Position numbers and translations under genes: made by a program. 30,818 bases of DNA, taken from IMG/VR virus record IMGVR_UViG_3300032053_000334, positions 1 to 30,818 of that record. One strand, 5' to 3'. How positions within the stretch are numbered: position 1 is the first letter of the stretch; every line of letters begins with the position of its first letter. The DNA comes from a virus. The notes under the pieces were generated by a model. That model saw nothing but the letters and a program-made list of their open reading frames with translations, had not been told where the DNA came from and made no database searches. Below, one piece after another: positions 2,542 through 29,861 of the stretch.

Positions 2542-3980
2542 TATGGTAATATTACTTCATTGTTTCTTAAAGTTATTCTGTATTTAATGTACTGTCCAAC
2601 TATTCTGCTTCTTGTTGCATGGTCGTAAGCATCATCACCACTTCCAACACCTGATGCATCTATATAAGGGATTCCCTCCAATGGAACTTTAATCCATGAA
2701 GCGGAATAAGTAACATCATCAGAACTCACTTTTATTTCCACAGTTTCAATATTTGGAGAGGCTTCGTCCGCACTCCTTACCGTATCAATGGTATAGCCAT
2801 TTGTATAATCAACAATTGAGGCAGGAATTGTAATTCTTTCAATGCGTCTATCAACTGTCGCAAACTGAATACCATTTGTGTTTGTTACAATTGAAGTAGT
2901 ACCCCCTGATTGATAAATCTCTCCTGTTCCTTTTGTTGCATTTGCATCAATAGTCCAATTTGCATCATCTGTATTTTCTGCCCCTCTCGCAAATCCAAAA
3001 GCCCCTATTTGTTTTCCATCATACCCCCCGTTACCATTTGGTGAAGCGGGGGCGTAAGTTAAATCGGATGAATTTAAAACAGTGTTAAACTGTGGTGAAG
3101 CTGATGAGGATTTACCATTAATGTCAAAAGTTACTTTTCCAATAATAGCCAAATCTCTTGATGTATATACTGAATTATTTATAGTTATTTTGCCAGCTAA
3201 AGTGCCAACTATATGATTGTTGTAACTTGGAGTATAGTTGCTTTCGTCATATTGGTAAATTTTAGTTGTAGAATCAAAATAATTATCTCGGTAAGTAAGT
3301 AAGTTAACTAATCCTGCTGATTGAACATAAACGTAACTACCTAAGAACGAGTTTTTCTGTATAAAAGTAGTCCTATAATTAGAAGTTCTTATAAAGTTAA
3401 TTGTATTATAACTCGGCATATCAAAAACGCATCCCTCTAATAAATCAAAATTAGCTTGTTCAGCGTAACCAACTTGCTGATTGTTAATGAATGAAACATT
3501 AAATATTCCAACTTTTACAGGTGGAATATACGCGGAATAATAAGCACCAAAATAAATATTTTGGGGAAAATCTTTAATAGTTATTCTACCAAAGTTTCGT
3601 TTTTTATTTCCACTATTAATGTCATAATTAAAAGAAACCCAGCTATTTGATGCTGCACATAATTTAAAACCGTTGTGTGTAGTTGCTTTTATAGTAACTC
3701 TACCCTCAGCAATTAAAGAAACACCCCCAAATGGTCTATTTAAAAAATCACCCTCTTCAAAGTAACCTGTTGCAATAATATCAACATTTGTAATCGCCCC
3801 TCCATTTCCTGCACTTGCACACTCATCAAGTACTTTTTGTATGGAATTATATGGGGCTAAATAGCTACCAACATTAGCATCATCGCCTGTAAATGGGTCA
3901 ACATAAAAAGTTTTGTCGGTCTGCTTGTTAGCTGTTCCACCAACCCTCCCTGTTTCGTTATAAAATTGCCAAGTTGCCAT
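2541..3980 (-). CDS. Tail spike/fibre with right-handed beta-helix (pectate-lyase-like) fold
   Basis: This 479-residue protein has a short N-terminal adaptor (about 1-22), then TFYVDPFTGDDANVGS, continuing into YLAPYNSIQKVLDECA (residues 24-55). That is the typical opening strand and cap of phage pectin-lyase-fold spikes ('YVDpxtGdDxnxGsxxxPyxTiqxA'). The body consists of short Gly/Asn-rich beta rungs. The last ~100 residues look like a separate beta-sandwich ending in ITLRNNEVILP. Such spikes bind or degrade surface glycans; no catalytic residues can be assigned here. It overlaps its neighbours by one base on each side and is the second beta-helix protein in the tail block. A host-recognition role is inferred. 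Confidence 0.75.
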   Translation of the reverse strand: MATWQFYNETGRVGGTANKQTDKTFYVDPFTGDDANVGSYLAPYNSIQKVLDECASAGNGGAITNVDIIATGYFEEGDFLNRPFGGVSLIAEGRVTIKATTHNGFKLCAASNSWVSFNYDINSGNKKRNFGRITIKDFPQNIYFGAYYSAYIPPVKVGIFNVSFINNQQVGYAEQANFDLLEGCVFDMPSYNTINFIRTSNYRTTFIQKNSFLGSYVYVQSAGLVNLLTYRDNYFDSTTKIYQYDESNYTPSYNNHIVGTLAGKITINNSVYTSRDLAIIGKVTFDINGKSSSASPQFNTVLNSSDLTYAPASPNGNGGYDGKQIGAFGFARGAENTDDANWTIDANATKGTGEIYQSGGTTSIVTNTNGIQFATVDRRIERITIPASIVDYTNGYTIDTVRSADEASPNIETVEIKVSSDDVTYSASWIKVPLEGIPYIDASGVGSGDDAYDHATRSRIVGQYIKYRITLRNNEVILP

Positions 3981-9609: not shown

Positions 9610-11374
9610 TATAAGATAGTTTCAGATTATTTGTGTAAAGATATGGAATTTTGTAATTAATTGTAGCTTTTTCATTATAAACATCCCATTCAATATCTGA
9701 AATTTCACCTATACTTCCATCGGGTGCAATAAATTTATTATTTTTCGTTAATAATTGCCAATCTTCGGAGCAAAACGGAATAGTAACCCCCGTATAAACT
9801 TTGTATTGATTATGAATGTTTTGCCCTGTTTTTGAATCTAATATAGGAACAAAGCTATTAATCTTATGAAAATCCCATAAATCCGAAGCCTGTAATTTAA
9901 AACCCGCTGGAATAACCTCGTTATCTATTCGCATTAATTTATCAGTAGAAATCGTATCAGCAGTTAATACCATCATTCCGATACGCTTTGTTATCTTAGA
10001 CGCTAAAGATGAATTACCGCCTAATTGGTTTATTGCTTTATCAACACTTTGAGCCATTTCTTTTAAAGCCTTTTCAACTACTGTTAAATCATTTTTTCTT
10101 GATGCTAAAGCAAAAGGCAATCTAACTTCACCTAAGTTTTTTACATTTACAAAAGGTCTGGTGTTTATCGATGCCGCTGTGGTTATTACTTGGAAGTTAG
10201 TACCTAGAAAGTTTTCCAATGTGTTTTCATCCTGTATATCCGTTTGAAAGCTGATCATAAAATTCGATAGCATTTCATCCGTGTTGTACGAATATTCAGA
10301 CAGCCTAATATCTTGATTTGTTTCTACGTCTGGCAATGTCCACGCAGCAGTACTATCCCAATAGTCCGCACGTTCAAAAATTAAAACGTTATTATCCAAT
10401 TTTATCGACGCGTTAAACATTTGCTTCATTGTCCGCAAAAAGTCGCCAAAATTGTAAACGGAACTATTTTGATTTGGGTGTCCTAATCCATTCGCCCCGC
10501 CTCCAATCTTACCCCGTTCAGATTTAGACGGCAAATAAGTAAGGTTTGACCATAGTGGATTATTGAATATACTTGATTGAAATGTTAAGCCCATATAAGC
10601 GCAACCAACCTCGAACATTCGTTTGATTTTCATCCCGTAGTAACGTCGAACAGGAGGAAACAATTGGTCTATCAATTCCTCTGTCATTTTTATCAATGCG
10701 TACGTAAGCGCAATTGCATAGACTAAATCAAACAGTAAGTTAAGCCCAGCACTTATCAAGTCACCAACACCAAAAGCCAACCCCGCATTGATGCTTTCTA
10801 AAAACTTTGCTGTTGATTTGCTTATGTCTTTTACGCTTTGAATTAATGCTTGTGTACTCATGTATATTGACAAAGAAAGCATTACCAAAGCAAATGTCTC
10901 AGGACGTTGATTTAAAACGTATGGGATTTGAACGTAGTCGGATTGCGTAACAAATTTTTGATTAAAAAGGTAAGCAAAGCTAAATGAATCGGATTGATTT
11001 GTTAACCAGTCTAAGGCTTGTTTTTTCTTAATCGTCGCTTCAACTTCATCGCATGAAGTGAACTTAGCCCCATCAACTAAGTCAATATACCCGTCTAATA
11101 TTTGTGTAACTAATTGCGTTTGATGTTCGCGTAGTTTAATCGCGTATGGTATGCCCTCGAATATTCCAACACCTCCTTTTAGCCCGTCCGATACGTGCTT
11201 CAAAATTGTTTCGGCATCTTCCAAAACGAACTGTAATGAATTGGTGCTAACTTCGGCTTCGCTCTTATCTTCGACGGTGTTACCCGCCCCCCATTTAGTG
11301 ATTAGCTTTAGTTCCCTAGCGTTCTTTGGTGTCGCTTGTTCTACTCCGTTTATCTCAAATATTACGTCAATCAT
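9596..11374 (-). CDS. Tail hub/baseplate protein downstream of the tape measure
   Basis: This 592-residue protein directly follows the tape-measure gene with an ATGA overlap, the usual place for the distal tail or tail-hub (Dit/Tal-like) proteins. The N-terminal ~130 residues (MIDVIFEINGVEQATPKNAR; LVTQILDGYIDLVDGAKF) look like a beta-domain of the hub type. Two hydrophobic helical stretches follow, at about 160-178 (FALVMLSLSIYMSTQAL) and 199-232 (SAGLNLLFDLVYAIALTYAL), which is unusual for a hub. They could be buried helices or membrane-penetrating segments used during DNA entry. The C-terminal half is mixed alpha/beta. The tail-component call is strong from position; the membrane role is speculation. 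Confidence 0.65.
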   Translation of the reverse strand: MIDVIFEINGVEQATPKNARELKLITKWGAGNTVEDKSEAEVSTNSLQFVLEDAETILKHVSDGLKGGVGIFEGIPYAIKLREHQTQLVTQILDGYIDLVDGAKFTSCDEVEATIKKKQALDWLTNQSDSFSFAYLFNQKFVTQSDYVQIPYVLNQRPETFALVMLSLSIYMSTQALIQSVKDISKSTAKFLESINAGLAFGVGDLISAGLNLLFDLVYAIALTYALIKMTEELIDQLFPPVRRYYGMKIKRMFEVGCAYMGLTFQSSIFNNPLWSNLTYLPSKSERGKIGGGANGLGHPNQNSSVYNFGDFLRTMKQMFNASIKLDNNVLIFERADYWDSTAAWTLPDVETNQDIRLSEYSYNTDEMLSNFMISFQTDIQDENTLENFLGTNFQVITTAASINTRPFVNVKNLGEVRLPFALASRKNDLTVVEKALKEMAQSVDKAINQLGGNSSLASKITKRIGMMVLTADTISTDKLMRIDNEVIPAGFKLQASDLWDFHKINSFVPILDSKTGQNIHNQYKVYTGVTIPFCSEDWQLLTKNNKFIAPDGSIGEISDIEWDVYNEKATINYKIPYLYTNNLKLSYNEGE

Positions 11375-14300
11375 AATCGGTTTTTATTTACACGGTAACG
11401 GCTTATTGTTCGCTTATTGGCTACGATGTTTGTTTCAACAATGTCAAGGTAGGAATCACGTAAGTTTTCGACGTTCACTTGTTGCACGGGCTTATTCTCG
11501 ATTGCTTTTTTCACATCGTTTATTTCGGCTTTCAAACTACTAAAATCAACTACCATTGTTTGTCTTTGTGGAATCATTGCCACTTGACCGCCGAAAACGT
11601 CGCTGGATAGTGAGCCGCCGTCTAAGGATTTAGTAAGGCTCATAAAGTTATCACGACCTAAAGCGTTCATTTGTTGCGCTGATAAGATACCTTCGCCACC
11701 CTCTACCATTACAGGAATACCCCCGCTTTTAGCAGTGTGTTTATCGCCTCTAAAAATACCCCCTCGTTTCACTAATGTATCTTCAATTGTACCATATTCA
11801 CCAGTACCATCTCCGAATGCTTGTAAGCTAGATTCAATACCTTGCATGATGGCGAAGTCAGTTAATACTTTCACGATTGCGTTATTATCTCCACTACTTG
11901 CGGCGCTTGAATAGGCTGAATAAAGAGCTTTAATTTTTTCTAATTGTATTAGCTTCTTTTGGGCTTCTAACTTTTGGTTTTCTAGTTTCGCCAATTGCGC
12001 TTCCTCAAATGCAAGTGTATTTTCGGCTCCTTGCATTGCTAACTCTTGTTGCTTTTCAATTTGATTGTTTTGTGCATCAATCTTTTTTTGAATCTTATCT
12101 TCTTCAGCTTGTGCGATTCTTTCTAAAGCGTCAATTGTCATATTAACTAAAAAATCCGTTTGCTCTTTTATTCTAGCTTTATTCTTTGCTTTCTTTTCAT
12201 CTTCGTACTTCTTGTTAATAGCCGCTTCATCCTTTAACGCTTTTTTGTCAATTTCAGCCAACAATGCCGCCTCTAAATCTGCTTCATACTTTTTATCCTT
12301 TATTGCTTGTTTTCTAAGGGTTTTCGCGAAATTGTATGCCGCTATTTCTTTTTCTTGTTCAGTCTTTTTTTCATCTATTATATTTTCTACTTGCAAAGCT
12401 TTTAATTCTTTTAACCCCTCCTTGTTTAGGTCAAATCGTTTTTTTCTTGCGTTTTCTTCAATTTGTTCAATATCAATTATTAATTGCTCATTTATCAATC
12501 TAATTATTTCAGCTTTTTTTATTTCACTACCTATTGATAAATTAACCTCCCTTATTCTATGTTCTGCATTTATTTGTGCTTGAGTAATTAACTTTTCTTC
12601 CTCATTCTTAATATCTCGAACGATAGCATCTTGTGTTAATTTTTCTTGTTGGTCGCTTAGTTTTATATTTTCAGCGTCAATTTGAGCTTGAAGTACTCCA
12701 AGTAAAGCATCTCTTTTTTTATCTAAGGCTTTTACCTCCTTATTTATTTGAAGTATTCTTTCTGGGCTATTTGTTGCCTGTTGTTCTTCGTTTAACTTCT
12801 TAGTTTTTTCTGCAATTTCAGATAGTAATCCTAGTTTTACTATATTTTCTTCAATCTCTTCTTTAATTTCTTCAACAATTACTTTGGAAGATTCTTTTTG
12901 AAGATTTATTTGGTCTTTTATTAAATCATTTAAAGCAGCTTCCTCAATAGCTAATAATGCCTTTCTGTTTTTTAATGCTTGTATTGCATCTGCTAATTTT
13001 TCTGTTGAATTTCTTTGAGCTTGATTTGACGCAAAAACACTTTGATTTTGACTTAATGCTTTTTGTACATTTCCTCTAGTGTCTAATATATTTAAAAGTG
13101 TTTCAGCTCTTTTTATTTCATCCATTTCAGCTTTTTGAATAGCTTCAAGTCCTTTAACTTTTTTATCTATTGCCTCTTTTTCTGAAACCCCTGTTGCATC
13201 AAGTAATCTTTTTTGAGCCTCTGCAAATTTAATCTGCGCCTCCGCTGCTCTGGCTGCTTGTTCCTGTATTTGTTCCTCTTTCTTTTGAATAACTATTTTT
13301 TGGATTAAACTTTTATTTACCGCCTCTAGTGCTAAGTTTAAATCCTTATTGCTTACCGTTTCAGCATCTATATTTTTAAGTAAGTCTGGATATTGCGTCT
13401 TTAAATCATTTATCAATTCTATCCTACGTTCAGTTGTTGTATTAATTGACATTAATTCAGCTTTTGCGGCAAAAATATTAGTCCTTTCTTTTTCTAAAGA
13501 TTCACTAACTTTTTCCGTACTCGTAAAAAAGCCCAATAATTTAGTAGTTCCATCTACTATTCCTCTCAAAAAACCATTTAACAATCCATCTCCCTCTTCA
13601 ATGCCTAAAATAAAACCCTCCCAAGCCGAACTTAATAATTTAACAGAACCACTAAGGTTATCAAGCTGCTTGTCTGCCATTTCTTGCGCTGTTCCTTTTG
13701 CGTCTTGTAATGCTAAAGTCATTGTTTGGATGCTGTCCGCACCCTCTAAAAAAGTGTTGAAAGCACCAACACTTCTTACATCGGTCAATTCTAAAGCCGA
13801 AGCTAAATCAATACCCTCGTTTTTTAATTGCTTTAACCCTTTTACTAAACTAGGAATATCTTTTACAGGCTCTTTTAACGATTTTGCTAGCTTACCATTT
13901 GAATCAGCAAGATTTAACAATATGTTTCTAGTTGCTGTTGCGCCACTTGACGCATCAAAACCAGCGTTTGAAAGTTGCCCTAATAAAGCTGTTGTATCTT
14001 CAATTGTAAAACCAAACGCTTTTGCTACTGGTGAAACAGTTGCTAAATTTTGAGCTAAATCTTCGAAATCTAATGCCGTTAAAATTGTTGACTTTGCTAA
14101 AACATCCGTTACCCTAGTGGCGTGTGAAGCGTCTAAACCAAATGCTTGTAATGCAGAACCTACTAAAGTTGCGGTTTCGCCTAACCCGCTACCCATCGCC
14201 GCCGCACCATCAAGTATTGAAGCCGTCATTGCGTGAATATCATCAATTGGAAATCCTAACTTACCTAATTCCGTTTGCAATCCTGTAACCTCCGTTGCGG

Positions 14301-15093
14301 TAAATGAAGTACTAGCGCCTAAGGCTTTCGCTTCTGCAACTAAACTTTTTGCTTGGTCTTTTGTTATTCCCAAAACCGCGTTTAAGTTACTGTTCGCTTT
14401 TTCAAAATCGGAAAATATACCTACACTGCTTTTTATTACTTGAAATACTGCGGTTATTCCCGTTGCTATTCCTAAAGCGCCTAAAGTCCGACCTAAACCT
14501 TGAAAAGCTTTTGCATAATTACCTACATTACCTTGACTTCTTCCGATGCTTTCATTCAGCTTTTTTACCTCCGCATCTTGCTTTTGTATAGTTGCGTTTA
14601 AATCCTTACCCGCTTTTGTACTATCCCTTTCGGCGGCGCTCATTGATTTATATTTATCAATGTTTTGTCTTAGCTGCGCTTCAAGTTGTTTTAAACTTCC
14701 TTGTTGTTGCTTTTCAACTATAATTTCGTTTTTTAAAGCCTGTGTTTGTCCTTGTATAGCAAGTTTTAGTTCCTGTTCTTTTTTAGCTTCTTCAGTTTTT
14801 AAACGAATCGATTGCTCTTCAAGTTTTTGAAGTTGGCTTTTAACCTCCTTATTTTCTTTTAGTTTAGTATTTAGCGATGCAACTTTTGCTTCTAATTCAG
14901 CTATTTGCTTTGATGAATCAGGATTAACAATGTTTAAGTTTTTAGCAGCGTCTTGCGTCTTTTTAAATTCATCACGAATGCTTTGTGAAGCCTTTGAGTA
15001 AATCGAATCAAGTTCTTTTATTTTTTTTATTAACGCGTCCAGCGCTCCGTCATCTTGAAATAAGTCGCTGTATTTAATCGGATTTTCTTCCAT
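11371..15093 (-). CDS. Tail tape measure protein (TP901-type core domain)
   Basis: This 1240-residue protein has three parts. Residues 1-190 form a long charged coiled coil. A Gly/Ala-rich hydrophobic stretch (about 203-227) leads into the TP901-type core (about 227-430), with FSDFEKANSNLNAVLGITKD, ALGASTSFTATEVTGLQTEL and NAGFDASSGATATRNILL. From about 530 to 1090 it is again coiled coil, very rich in Lys, Glu, Gln and Ala, followed by a short globular C-terminus. It sets tail length and occupies the tail tube before DNA release. The common 1.5 angstrom per residue rule would give a tail near 185 nm. It starts 20 bases inside the end of the tail-chaperone frame and is followed by the hub gene. 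Confidence 0.93.
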   Translation of the reverse strand: MEENPIKYSDLFQDDGALDALIKKIKELDSIYSKASQSIRDEFKKTQDAAKNLNIVNPDSSKQIAELEAKVASLNTKLKENKEVKSQLQKLEEQSIRLKTEEAKKEQELKLAIQGQTQALKNEIIVEKQQQGSLKQLEAQLRQNIDKYKSMSAAERDSTKAGKDLNATIQKQDAEVKKLNESIGRSQGNVGNYAKAFQGLGRTLGALGIATGITAVFQVIKSSVGIFSDFEKANSNLNAVLGITKDQAKSLVAEAKALGASTSFTATEVTGLQTELGKLGFPIDDIHAMTASILDGAAAMGSGLGETATLVGSALQAFGLDASHATRVTDVLAKSTILTALDFEDLAQNLATVSPVAKAFGFTIEDTTALLGQLSNAGFDASSGATATRNILLNLADSNGKLAKSLKEPVKDIPSLVKGLKQLKNEGIDLASALELTDVRSVGAFNTFLEGADSIQTMTLALQDAKGTAQEMADKQLDNLSGSVKLLSSAWEGFILGIEEGDGLLNGFLRGIVDGTTKLLGFFTSTEKVSESLEKERTNIFAAKAELMSINTTTERRIELINDLKTQYPDLLKNIDAETVSNKDLNLALEAVNKSLIQKIVIQKKEEQIQEQAARAAEAQIKFAEAQKRLLDATGVSEKEAIDKKVKGLEAIQKAEMDEIKRAETLLNILDTRGNVQKALSQNQSVFASNQAQRNSTEKLADAIQALKNRKALLAIEEAALNDLIKDQINLQKESSKVIVEEIKEEIEENIVKLGLLSEIAEKTKKLNEEQQATNSPERILQINKEVKALDKKRDALLGVLQAQIDAENIKLSDQQEKLTQDAIVRDIKNEEEKLITQAQINAEHRIREVNLSIGSEIKKAEIIRLINEQLIIDIEQIEENARKKRFDLNKEGLKELKALQVENIIDEKKTEQEKEIAAYNFAKTLRKQAIKDKKYEADLEAALLAEIDKKALKDEAAINKKYEDEKKAKNKARIKEQTDFLVNMTIDALERIAQAEEDKIQKKIDAQNNQIEKQQELAMQGAENTLAFEEAQLAKLENQKLEAQKKLIQLEKIKALYSAYSSAASSGDNNAIVKVLTDFAIMQGIESSLQAFGDGTGEYGTIEDTLVKRGGIFRGDKHTAKSGGIPVMVEGGEGILSAQQMNALGRDNFMSLTKSLDGGSLSSDVFGGQVAMIPQRQTMVVDFSSLKAEINDVKKAIENKPVQQVNVENLRDSYLDIVETNIVANKRTISRYRVNKNRL

Positions 15094-15436
15094 TTTGTGT
15101 TTGTTGTTTTTTTAACATTTCCATTAAACTGTAAACCTCCAAAACGTTCATCCCTTTAACGCTTGTATTCGTATGGCTATTCAAACCATGACAAACCATT
15201 TGATAATTCTTTTCATGCTCCACTTCATAACTCTGTTGCCCCATGAAGTTTTTAGGCTTGTATAAGCTAAGTAAAGCCTGTTCAATCTTAAATAAATCCT
15301 TTATAAATTGCTCGTTATCCTCATTCAACATTATGTCGCACATCAATAAAATACGTTCCTTTCTATTTAGCCTACTTTGGAAGTCATGCGACCCGTCGAA
15401 CAATGTAGGAAAAAAAGTATGCAGTTCAAATTCTAT
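15074..15436 (-). CDS. Tail assembly chaperone, downstream part read by -1 frameshift (gpGT-like)
   Basis: This frame is open from the A10 run of the upstream gene to 15074 and has no good start of its own. The only early start candidate is a TTG at 15403. Read through a -1 slip at the A-run it continues as IEFELHTFFPTLFDG, then SHDFQSRLNRKERILLMCD, giving about 120 extra residues. The conceptual fusion with the upstream 135-residue protein is about 255 residues. Siphoviruses and myoviruses make such short and long chaperones (lambda gpG and gpGT) immediately before the tape measure, which they coat during tail assembly. The frame overlaps the tape-measure start by 20 bases. The frameshift is inferred from frame geometry and synteny. 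Confidence 0.8.
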   Translation of the reverse strand: MEFELHTFFPTLFDGSHDFQSRLNRKERILLMCDIMLNEDNEQFIKDLFKIEQALLSLYKPKNFMGQQSYEVEHEKNYQMVCHGLNSHTNTSVKGMNVLEVYSLMEMLKKQQTQNGRKSD

Positions 15437-15840
15437 TTTTTTTTTACGTCTGATGCCGTTTCTGACACCGTTTTAACGTCCAACCCCTCTTTGCTCAAAT
15501 CGAGCAACAACGCTTTCAATTTATCTTCGCTATAATCTTCCATCGCTTTACCGTTCACCTTGCTTATCAAGGATGCAAACGCTAAGCCTTTACTGCTATT
15601 TCCTGTTAATATGTTATTCACCACTATTCGTAAATTTAATAATTCGTTTTTGGCATCGTCGTACATTTCCTTGTTTAGAAATTCGTAAATGCGAACCGTT
15701 ATTTTGTCAAAATCTTGCACCGTCGCCCCTAGTTCACTATCCAACATCACATACTTATTGAACGCATTAAACCGCTCAAATGGCAGTTGGTCAATACTAT
15801 CAAACAATTCAAGGTCAAACTTTCCTATTTCTAATTTCAT
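15433..15840 (-). CDS. Tail assembly chaperone, upstream part (gpG-like)
   Basis: This 135-residue, mostly helical, acidic protein lies two genes upstream of the tape measure, where the short tail-assembly chaperone is expected. It begins MKLEIGKFDLELFDSIDQLP and contains two helical blocks, about 53-80 and 92-117. It ends in DVKKK, encoded by GTA followed by nine of the ten A residues (plus-strand T-run 15436-15445) and then TAG. That homopolymer directly before the stop is a plausible slippery site for the -1 extension. The start overlaps the upstream membrane-protein stop as ATGA. The short product would be made in excess and the fused product in minority, as in lambda. Confidence 0.8.
   Translation of the reverse strand: MKLEIGKFDLELFDSIDQLPFERFNAFNKYVMLDSELGATVQDFDKITVRIYEFLNKEMYDDAKNELLNLRIVVNNILTGNSSKGLAFASLISKVNGKAMEDYSEDKLKALLLDLSKEGLDVKTVSETASDVKKK
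15436..15445 (-). promoter_or_regulatory. Probable programmed -1 frameshift site, A10 run
   Basis: Ten T residues on the plus strand give A10 in the mRNA, ending one base before the G of the TAG stop context (GTA AAA AAA AAA TAG). Slipping back by one base converts the stop into ATA GAA TTT and joins the two chaperone frames. A-runs this long are known to support slippage in both transcription and translation. I did not compute a downstream stimulatory structure. Confidence 0.75.
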
Positions 15841-16088
15841 CGTACTATGTGAATTAACCCCGCTACCATTAACGGGATTATGAAGTAAAGATAATTAAAA
15901 TCAACTAAAAAAAAAGGTATCATAATCAACAATGTAAGGTGATGCGACAAACAAAAGTTGCATACAACCATTTTGTATATGAAGTTGCTTTTTACCCGCA
16001 TTTGTACCCATTCGATTAATCCAATCTTTTCAATTAGCAACATTGCCCCGTTAATAAATAAAGCCGTTACAAGTGTAAATTCTAACAT
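15837..16088 (-). CDS. Small membrane protein with CxxC motif inside the tail module
   Basis: This 83-residue protein has hydrophobic segments at about 5-24 (TLVTALFINGAMLLI), 51-62 (LTLLIMIPFFLV) and 66-82 (YLYFIIPLMVAGLIHIV). The conserved-looking motif CNFCLSHH (Cys43, Cys46, His49, His50) precedes the second segment. It overlaps both neighbours (7 bases with the tail-terminator-like gene, 4 with the chaperone gene), so it is translationally embedded in the tail operon. A membrane protein is not an obvious virion part. I recall similar CxFC-containing small membrane proteins in Bacteroidetes phages, but know no function. An assembly, lysis or exclusion role is possible. Confidence 0.65.
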   Translation of the reverse strand: MLEFTLVTALFINGAMLLIEKIGLIEWVQMRVKSNFIYKMVVCNFCLSHHLTLLIMIPFFLVDFNYLYFIIPLMVAGLIHIVR

Positions 16089-23517: not shown

Positions 23518-24096
23518 CTATATCACTATTTTTTTATTTATCAACCTATTTGGCGCCGATTTTGATAAAACGCTAGTCTTTATCCTGTCATACTCCTCAA
23601 AACATAGTTTAGCGGCTTGGTATAATTTTATACACTCTTCTTTGTTTTTAGAAGTGTGTAGAACAAATGATTTGCCTTCAAAATCTATTTTTGCTAAATA
23701 ATCCCCCCTTGTTGCAAAATAACTTACTCCAGTATATCCATTTTTGTTTTTCATTTTTGTCGCAACAAAATTTCTCTTAGTAATAAATTTTAAATTATCT
23801 AGTCGGCAATTTAATGGATTTCCATCTACGGCAAAAATAATATGGTTTCTAAGAAGTTTTATTTCATTAAAAACCGAATAAACAAGTCTATTAACAACTA
23901 CATTTTTATATCTTTTTTCATGCCTTAACGTTATAGCAAAAATAGATTTTTTTTTGGTTTTCAATATGTACTCTTTTGATAGATAAACACCTCCATTATG
24001 TTGCGTTCTTTCAATGGGGAGCCTTTTTACATTCCCGAAGTTACTAACTTGATAAATTCCTTCAAATTCTGGTACTTCTTTCCATATTTCTCCCAT
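23518..24096 (-). CDS. NUMOD4/HNH/AP2-type homing endonuclease with degenerate HNH motif
   Basis: This 192-residue protein has three recognisable parts. NUMOD4 lies at about 3-26 (EIWKEVPEFEGIYQVSNFGN), the DNA-contacting module of homing endonucleases. An HNH_3-like core is at about 67-106, including VDGNPLNCRLDNLKFIT. An AP2-like DNA-binding domain is at about 117-170, with NGYTGVSYFATRGDYLAKID. In the HNH core the family pattern H-x-D-G-N is here A89-V-D-G-N, and the usual H-R-L-V is N69-R-L-V, so expected histidines are absent. The gene stands alone between the terminase terminator and the virion promoter. It is probably a selfish insertion, possibly inactive or using different residues. 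Confidence 0.85.
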   Translation of the reverse strand: MGEIWKEVPEFEGIYQVSNFGNVKRLPIERTQHNGGVYLSKEYILKTKKKSIFAITLRHEKRYKNVVVNRLVYSVFNEIKLLRNHIIFAVDGNPLNCRLDNLKFITKRNFVATKMKNKNGYTGVSYFATRGDYLAKIDFEGKSFVLHTSKNKEECIKLYQAAKLCFEEYDRIKTSVLSKSAPNRLINKKIVI

Positions 24097-27296: not shown

Positions 27297-27758
27297 TTAA
27301 ATTTTATAGTTTTCTACTCGTTTAATCCACTCAAAATAAGCCTTAGCGTGTTCATTATCGCTATGAGTTGCTGTAATTTTATCTTTAAACTCTTGCATAG
27401 TTCCTTTGAAGCATCCGCAAACTATCTGTTCAATTTCATCATTCCAATAGTAGGTTGTTTGTGAATTTCTTGATCCTATTTTAGGGGATATAATTCTTTC
27501 AGGATTTGATTTGAAATTATTGCAGGAATCGCAGGAATTGCAGGAATCGCAGGACTTGCAGGAATCGCAGGACTTGCAGGAATTGCAGGAATTGCAGGAC
27601 TTGCAGGAATCGCAGGAATTGCAGGAATAGCAGTTAAAACAATTAACGCAATTTTTACAATTAATCAGATTAGCATTTTCAGCTTGGTTTTTGCTGTATA
27701 AATCGCAATCCCATCTATTATTGTTGGAATCAGTCCAATATCCGTTTATTTTTTTCAT
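27297..27758 (-). CDS. Cys-every-third-residue repeat protein
   Basis: I choose the ATG at 27758, one base after the upstream stop, giving 153 residues. The longer frame from 27830 overlaps the previous gene. Residues 1-33 form a Trp/Asn-rich head (MKKINGYWTDSNNNRWDC). From Cys34 to Cys79 there are 16 cysteines at exactly every third position, mostly CNS, CDS and CKS units, encoded by a 9-base DNA repeat (about 27516-27659). The C-terminal 40 residues contain CGCFKGTMQEFKDKI and HAKAYFEWIKR, a phage domain I have seen attached to other repeats. Metal binding or a solenoid of stacked cysteines are possible. No function is known to me. Confidence 0.75.
   Translation of the reverse strand: MKKINGYWTDSNNNRWDCDLYSKNQAENANLINCKNCVNCFNCYSCNSCDSCKSCNSCNSCKSCDSCKSCDSCNSCDSCNNFKSNPERIISPKIGSRNSQTTYYWNDEIEQIVCGCFKGTMQEFKDKITATHSDNEHAKAYFEWIKRVENYKI
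27516..27659 (-). repeat. 9-base tandem repeat tract coding for Cys-x-x units
   Basis: On the plus strand the unit is gcaggaatc, gcaggaatt or gcaggactt, repeated about 11 times almost perfectly, with more divergent copies on the right. Each unit codes for Ser/Asn/Asp/Lys plus Cys in frame. Because the unit is three codons long, slippage would change length without breaking the frame. Confidence 0.85.
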
Positions 27759-27759
27759 A

Positions 27760-28008
27760 TTATTTACCTTTTTTGATTCCTTTTTGACTAAAGTACACTC
27801 CATAAACAGGTCTATTATTTCTAGTTTCAAGTATTCTAGTAATTGCTAAAATAGCCTCTGACAGATTATTTAAGGTTTTACTATCTTTCCCCTTATTTGG
27901 GTTTACAGTAATAGTAGAATTACTTAAAGTATTATTTACAATTGGAGCTTCCTTTTCGTTTAGCTTCTCAATTAATTGTTTCTTTGTTAATTTGTTTAGA
28001 TTTTCCAT
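27760..28008 (-). CDS. 82-residue protein of unknown function
   Basis: This protein has a helical N-terminus (MENLNKLTKKQLIEKLNEKE) that reads like a SAP-type or similar two-helix DNA-binding start. A Thr/Asn/Ser linker follows, then a helix, DSKTLNNLSEAILAITRILE, and a C-terminus with NNRPVYGVYFSQKGIKKGK. It lies in the early cluster, 5 bases after its upstream neighbour. No firm family is recognised, and a nucleic-acid-binding role is only suggested by the basic ends. Confidence 0.6.
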   Translation of the reverse strand: MENLNKLTKKQLIEKLNEKEAPIVNNTLSNSTITVNPNKGKDSKTLNNLSEAILAITRILETRNNRPVYGVYFSQKGIKKGK

Positions 28009-29345: not shown

Positions 29346-29861
29346 TTAAATTGTTTCGTTAATATTCCATATTTTAAAAGGTAAATACTTCCTACAAATA
29401 TCCGCTGTTAGTTGTTGGTTTTCTTTTTCAGCAGTATAAGAAGCAGCGGCAGCATAAGCGGCAGCATAATAAGCAGCAGAAGCATAATAACCAGCATAAG
29501 CGGCAGCATAAGCGGCAGCATAAGCAGCAGAAGCGTCATAAACAGAAGCAGCAGCATAAACATAAGCGGCAGCATAATAAGCAGCATCTAACTCTTCTCT
29601 ACTTGCTTTACCTTTTCCAAATTTTATAGCTATTTTTACAGCTTTTATACTTCTTTCATCTTTCATTAAGTGAATAACAGTTTTAGCGCAATAGCCTTTT
29701 GCCAAAGTCAATCTTTGTAAGTCATCAGGATTAGTTTTAGCAAATAGCCATAGCAACCAATCACCACGATGACAAGTTTTGTATATTTCTTTCCACGATT
29801 TATCAGCTGCCCATTCTAAAGCATCTTCACAAGCGTCAATCTTTATTAATAGTTGTTTCAT
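29346..29861 (-). CDS. Imm-5-like protein with Ala/Tyr-rich repeat
   Basis: In this 171-residue protein, residues 1-60 read ACEDALEWAADKSWKEIYKT, then CHRGDWLLWLFAKTN, the characteristic opening of the Imm-5 type family of putative immunity proteins that is frequent in phages. Residues about 92-142 are an Ala/Tyr repeat (AAYAAAYAGYYAS and similar), replacing the Ala/Arg/Trp repeat usual in this family. The C-terminus is short and helical (TADICRKYLPFKIWNI). The family name comes from toxin-system genomics, and a role for the phage copies is not established. Possible roles are host-defence interference or superinfection protection; neither is shown here. Confidence 0.7.
   Translation of the reverse strand: MKQLLIKIDACEDALEWAADKSWKEIYKTCHRGDWLLWLFAKTNPDDLQRLTLAKGYCAKTVIHLMKDERSIKAVKIAIKFGKGKASREELDAAYYAAAYVYAAASVYDASAAYAAAYAAAYAGYYASAAYYAAAYAAAASYTAEKENQQLTADICRKYLPFKIWNINETI
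29436..29588 (-). repeat. Ala/Tyr-coding short tandem repeat tract
   Basis: The plus strand is built of gcagcataagcggcagcata-type units of 12 to 15 bases, coding Ala-Ala-Tyr-Ala-Ala on the minus strand. Units vary by insertion of Tyr, Ser or Gly. Length changes would keep the frame. Confidence 0.8.

Follow-up and report, generated by a model that had tools for sequence, protein, structure and literature searches.

A conserved A-run as a candidate site of RNA polymerase slippage in a proposed tail-chaperone gene of Bacteroidota phages

Long-tailed phages classically and widely produce two forms of tail chaperone, one short and one long, at a fixed ratio, and this is usually credited to ribosomal frameshifting. 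The locus described here, in which two reading frames meet on a run of ten A's just before a tape measure gene, raises the question of whether it is such a chaperone gene and at which step of gene expression its second product would arise. It belongs to a group of head and tail genes on the minus strand of a 30,818-base IMG/VR virus record, the whole of which is called the window here (Table 1). An earlier note on this DNA had proposed a programmed -1 frameshift on the A-run. Comparison with homologous loci leads us to favor, with a probability of roughly two in three, slippage of RNA polymerase on the run, yielding a short and a long protein from one gene. Elsewhere in the window are an ORF with a cysteine-rich repeat (NSCDSCKSCNSC...; 27297-27830), an ORF rich in Ala/Tyr repeats (29346-29861) and, between the packaging and structural genes, an ORF (23518-24096) that by eye resembles an HNH homing endonuclease.

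Table 1 Features of the candidate slippage locus in the window
Feature	Positions	Strand	Supporting observation
Small upstream ORF, its stop and the chaperone ATG overlapping as ATGA	15837..16088	-	PDS1 phage counterpart annotated DUF1360
Upstream ORF, 135 aa, predicted short (G-like) product, C-terminus VKKK-stop	15433..15840	-	phrog_8914 positions 4-136, E 7e-36
A10 run, candidate slippage site (T10 on + strand)	15436..15445	-	A8-A12 at the same spot in 98/99 homologous clusters
TAG stop of the short frame, abutting the run	15433..15435	-	Matching (+1) frame in fused relatives also has a close stop, 73/81 vs ~46 expected
Downstream (-1) frame, IEFELHTFF...GRKSD, C-terminal half of the predicted long product only	15074..15436	-	phrog_8914 positions 135-247, E 9e-18; no conserved start codon
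Tape measure protein gene, directly downstream	11371..15093	-	TIGR01760 E 3.8e-47; PhageMin_Tail E 3e-30

Two frames of one gene

Reading of the minus strand bears out the end of the upstream frame as the earlier note gave it, GTA (15447-15445) AAA AAA AAA TAG (15435-15433), and translation of the -1 frame past the run gives KKIEFELHTFFPTLFDG... with no stop until 15074, also as claimed, so that it runs into the beginning of the tape measure ORF. One extra A would lead to a predicted long product of 255 aa reading V-KKK-IEFEL... across the junction. Because a -1 ribosomal slip and a transcriptional slip that adds one A give this same fusion protein, the sequence of the window by itself is indecisive. 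The run is also unremarkable by composition, as base composition in this AT-rich window predicts 0.75 A-runs and 2.5 T-runs of at least 10 in 30.8 kb; its conservation, described below, exceeds chance, and the case rests on comparison.

The phrog_8914 profile (250 positions) covers both frames, whose halves meet at the A-run, and it matches all 57 fused homologs tested. Both parts form a single annotated ORF in named phages of Bacteroides, Parabacteroides, Alistipes, Elizabethkingia and Flavobacterium, with annotations that read virion structural protein, tail assembly chaperone or hypothetical, and two separate ORFs are annotated in Croceibacter phage P2559S. The profile match and the single-ORF relatives agree with the earlier view that the two frames are one protein. 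The window's frames are members of PHROG 8914, named 'virion structural protein', together with the tail assembly chaperones of Flavobacterium FPSV and Elizabethkingia TCUEAP2; the phage records of this family that were examined give one ORF (two in P2559S) and make no mention of recoding. A literature search, with most subscription journals outside its scope, found no published description of a recoding site in the family. Neither half had a match above cut-off in Pfam or NCBIfam, and no nucleotide relatives of the window were found among named phages.

Production of two separate proteins, with the second frame started at a TTG or an internal ATG and no fusion made, appears scarcely credible. 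In the -1 frame the 11th codon past the run is a TTG, both in the window (15403) and in a relative from another metagenome (L003), and the window has no ATG before residue 31. Among the 15 loci in which the second half lies at -1, as in the window (hereafter split), there is, however, no start codon common to its front, which agrees with the remark in the earlier note that this frame has no ATG near its front, only the TTG. The stretch from the run to the TTG, which had looked protein-like from the window, has a conserved E-L-x-x-F/Y-F-P, and most relatives carry one continuous protein. For the long product of the split members, IEFELHTFFPTLFDGSHDFQSR is a predicted tryptic peptide.

A structure model of a fused relative (L002) was confident throughout (pLDDT 94.7) and placed the run's three lysines (126-128) inside a long helix (115-136). 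Comparison of this model with the PDB by Foldseek and VIA-align gave no convincing match, the best viral structure matches (TM 0.91 and 0.85) are nameless, and a profile search for solved-structure homologs returned weak coiled-coil noise only. Since no solved structure is convincingly similar, the case for a chaperone function comes from gene order and the logic of two products. The position directly before the tape measure, already pointed out from the window, is confirmed by the TIGR01760 match, and among homologs a long tape-measure-like ORF lies within 500 nt in 89 of the 92 testable loci, with 78 resembling the window's tape measure. This arrangement suggests that the two frames form a single tail assembly chaperone gene, a functional analogue of lambda G/GT, with two products that would share an N-terminus through recoding.

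The lambda gpG and gpGT tail assembly chaperones were reportedly treated by Xu, Hendrix and Duda in 2004 and are covered in a review (PMC5009743). Both systems have the gene directly before the tape measure and a short product together with one that shares its start and is longer at the C-terminus (predicted here), with the extension at -1 in the window. They differ in that the family described here has a pure A-run and no GGGAAAG-type site, mostly encodes the long form in frame, has no sequence relationship to lambda G/GT that we could find, and likely employs RNA polymerase slippage.

Conservation of the run and the form encoded in the DNA

Viral, phage and genome collections gave 168 homologous loci, which were grouped into 99 clusters at 90% DNA identity. 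The search patterns were degenerate at the codon level, and searches without the lysines gave the same picture; a prophage survey of 395 Bacteroidota genomes produced 3 matches, too few for use. A run of A8-A12 is present at the exact junction in 98 of the 99 clusters, and 97 have A9-A12, a length of about nine or more A/T being what a slippage site requires. On the same strand across all 99 clusters (~472 kb) there are only three other A-runs of at least nine. The three lysine codons are all AAA in 96 of 96 clusters tested, against a background AAA usage of 0.55, and elsewhere in these loci just one of 41 KKK sites is AAAAAAAAA; kinship among the sequences inflates naive probabilities, but the AAA contrast is nevertheless very large. 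The run is thus conserved as DNA and not merely as lysines.

In 10 of 11 clusters of near relatives with distinct flanks, all members have the same run length. This weighs against the idea that the run is kept for DNA-level phase variation, in which changes in length would turn production of the long form on or off in the phage population. Homopolymer runs of such length do mutate readily, and the encoded phase differs among lineages, but a structural-assembly gene that needs both forms is an unlikely target, and together with the constancy of the run this makes phase variation very unlikely.

Some members of the collection stand apart. The one cluster of the 99 outside the A8-A12 range is L108, the most divergent homolog; it comes from a Bacteroidota genome of 7 Mb, has A4 only and no A-run, and its protein is fused. 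Three MAGs labelled Propionibacterium, Bacillota and Clostridia (L099, L103 and L105) carry clear family members and are probably mis-binned contigs. A T9 run on the coding strand of the small ORF just 5' of the chaperone gene (15907-15915 in the window) was considered as a second slippery site; similar runs occur in only 2 of 99 loci, and it is probably non-functional.

The two halves are fused in frame in 81 clusters, typically as GTC-A10-TAGA; the second half is at -1 in 15, including the window, and at +1 in 2 doubtful cases. One search pattern, [VTF]KKK[IV], favors fused members, and 81 versus 15 is therefore no census. Fused homologs and a conserved A-run, which the earlier note had suggested looking for, are thus both present among the relatives. 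A tree of 98 proteins, rooted for drawing only, has at least six changes between the fused and split labels.

One base would turn the window into the fused state, and the split could in principle reflect a sequencing or assembly error, or a recent inactivating frameshift in a gene whose true form is fused. Single records can indeed err: P2559S (L008, run at 2999-3006) has A8 and a +1 split, whereas its close relative L136, which differs at 41 of 500 flanking bases, carries A9 and is split at -1, and the P2559S record is therefore probably one A short. The other +1 member (L104) is from a low-coverage MAG, leaving both +1 cases doubtful. For the window, in contrast, the clade holds 8 split members and 1 fused, which indicates that its split is no assembly error and no private mutation, and L003, with about 65% protein identity, has an identical GT-A10-TAG. 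These two observations rule out sequencing error for the window, even as it is accepted as likely for P2559S. With the constant run length and the conservation of the A-run in fused genes as well, this explanation as a whole is highly improbable. The start of P2559S gp21 is annotated too far downstream.

Polymerase or ribosome at the run

We propose that the two classes correspond to one mRNA pair, with A(n), the short form, in split genomes and A(n+1), the long form, in fused genomes. RNA polymerase would slip on the conserved A9-A11 in mid-gene and produce mRNAs with n and n+1 A's, the former translated to a short protein with its stop just past the run and the latter to the long two-part protein. 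The window's DNA would then specify the short form, with one added A giving the long form; in most relatives the DNA would specify the long form, and one lost A would give the short form.

The fused members allow this to be compared with a ribosomal shift, as loss of one A predicts a stop soon after the run in the +1 frame, and a -1 ribosomal shift predicts one in the -1 frame. Against a null that kept the protein and local codon usage, a +1 stop within 16 nt was found in 73 of 81 fused members with about 46 expected, while -1 stops within the same distance showed no excess (52 of 81, 51 expected). The +1 excess held after thinning at 60% protein identity (32 of 37 versus 21.9, above all 500 simulations) and was suggestive only at 50% (13 of 17 versus 9.8). 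Isoleucine following the run is encoded by ATA in 40 of 68 cases, compared with 24 of 69 at other sites where isoleucine is preceded by AAA and followed by G (p = 0.004); ATA in this position creates a +1 TAG, whereas ATT would give an immediate -1 stop. Flavobacterium-type fused members (A11) are without a close stop in either alternative frame. On the other side of the run, valine in fused clusters is GTC in 50 of 59 and never GTG, with GTC making up about 20% for valine before lysine elsewhere.

A programmed -1 ribosomal frameshift on A AAA AAA would likewise yield the long product in the window and other split members, as in lambda G/GT; in most fused members it would yield the short one, as in E. 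coli dnaX. It would account for the second half being at -1 in all 15 split clusters and for the X XXY YYZ heptamer in the zero frame at the junction in both classes, and the 52 of 81 fused members noted above would reach a stop within 16 nt. A stimulatory structure downstream or a Shine-Dalgarno sequence upstream is common, but not universal, in such frameshifting. No RNA structure was found before or after the run, however, with a mean folding z of about 0 downstream in both classes, and upstream SD-like 4-mers are only weakly enriched (28 versus 19 expected) with none in the window. The run is also longer than the heptamer's seven A's in all but one exceptional locus, AAG is never seen, and fused members have neither a codon-level excess of -1 stops nor a preference for ATT over ATA. 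On this evidence we consider a ribosomal shift unlikely, if more credible in the split class than elsewhere, but still the strongest of the rival explanations. A point counting against polymerase slippage is that the trustworthy split members are nearly all at -1 and none securely at +1, when bidirectional slippage alone would allow both. Ribosomal and transcriptional slippage could also both be acting.

Among the parts of the original proposal that stand is probable recoding at the A-run. A -1 ribosomal shift, as first stated, is not supported: in most relatives this run lies inside an in-frame fused gene, their codon choice keeps the +1 and not the -1 stop, and no stimulatory RNA structure was found. 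RNA polymerase slippage, named in the earlier note only as an alternative to be separated, covers both classes and fits the data better than a lambda-type shift. We infer from the sequences that slippage occurs, that it is transcriptional, and that both products are made and needed.

Precedents exist for slippage in both directions. The short form is encoded by tssM1 of C. rodentium, with A11 and ~20-25% slippage, and the long form by tssM3 of Y. pseudotuberculosis, with A9 and 15-25% slippage (PMC4256274). As in the family described here, poly-A gives two length variants of a component of a tail-like machine, and short-encoded versus long-encoded mirrors split versus fused. The proteins are unrelated, the arrangement is rare among tssM genes but near universal in this family, and slippage was shown there experimentally, whereas here it is deduced from sequences. 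Transcriptional slippage on an A-run in Thermus thermophilus dnaX (PMC5009743) resembles the fused members in having the long product in one ORF and close stops in non-zero frames that give the short product; it differs in being a cellular replication gene, and here selection was detected on the +1 stop only. The tssM genes and Thermus dnaX are thus tested precedents for a process that would, on its own, account for both classes.

Stoichiometry presents a puzzle. With 10-30% slippage, short protein would predominate in split members and long protein in fused members, the latter the opposite of the ratio in lambda, which keeps about 30 G per GT (PMC5009743). Either the ratio is less critical here or slippage is much stronger in these hosts; the puzzle is no evidence against the site.

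A possible other step toward two chaperones

It seems somewhat probable that a lineage of Bacteroidota tailed phages replaced the chaperone's ribosomal frameshift by poly-A polymerase slippage, leaving the genome free to switch repeatedly between encoded forms. A large family thus appears to reach two chaperones by another step of gene expression, with a default product that differs among relatives, and the importance of the ratio is therefore directly testable in cultured phages. Slippage would also explain why the gene is annotated as one intact ORF in some phages and as two orphan ORFs in others, and, if true, would make the existing annotations predictably wrong.
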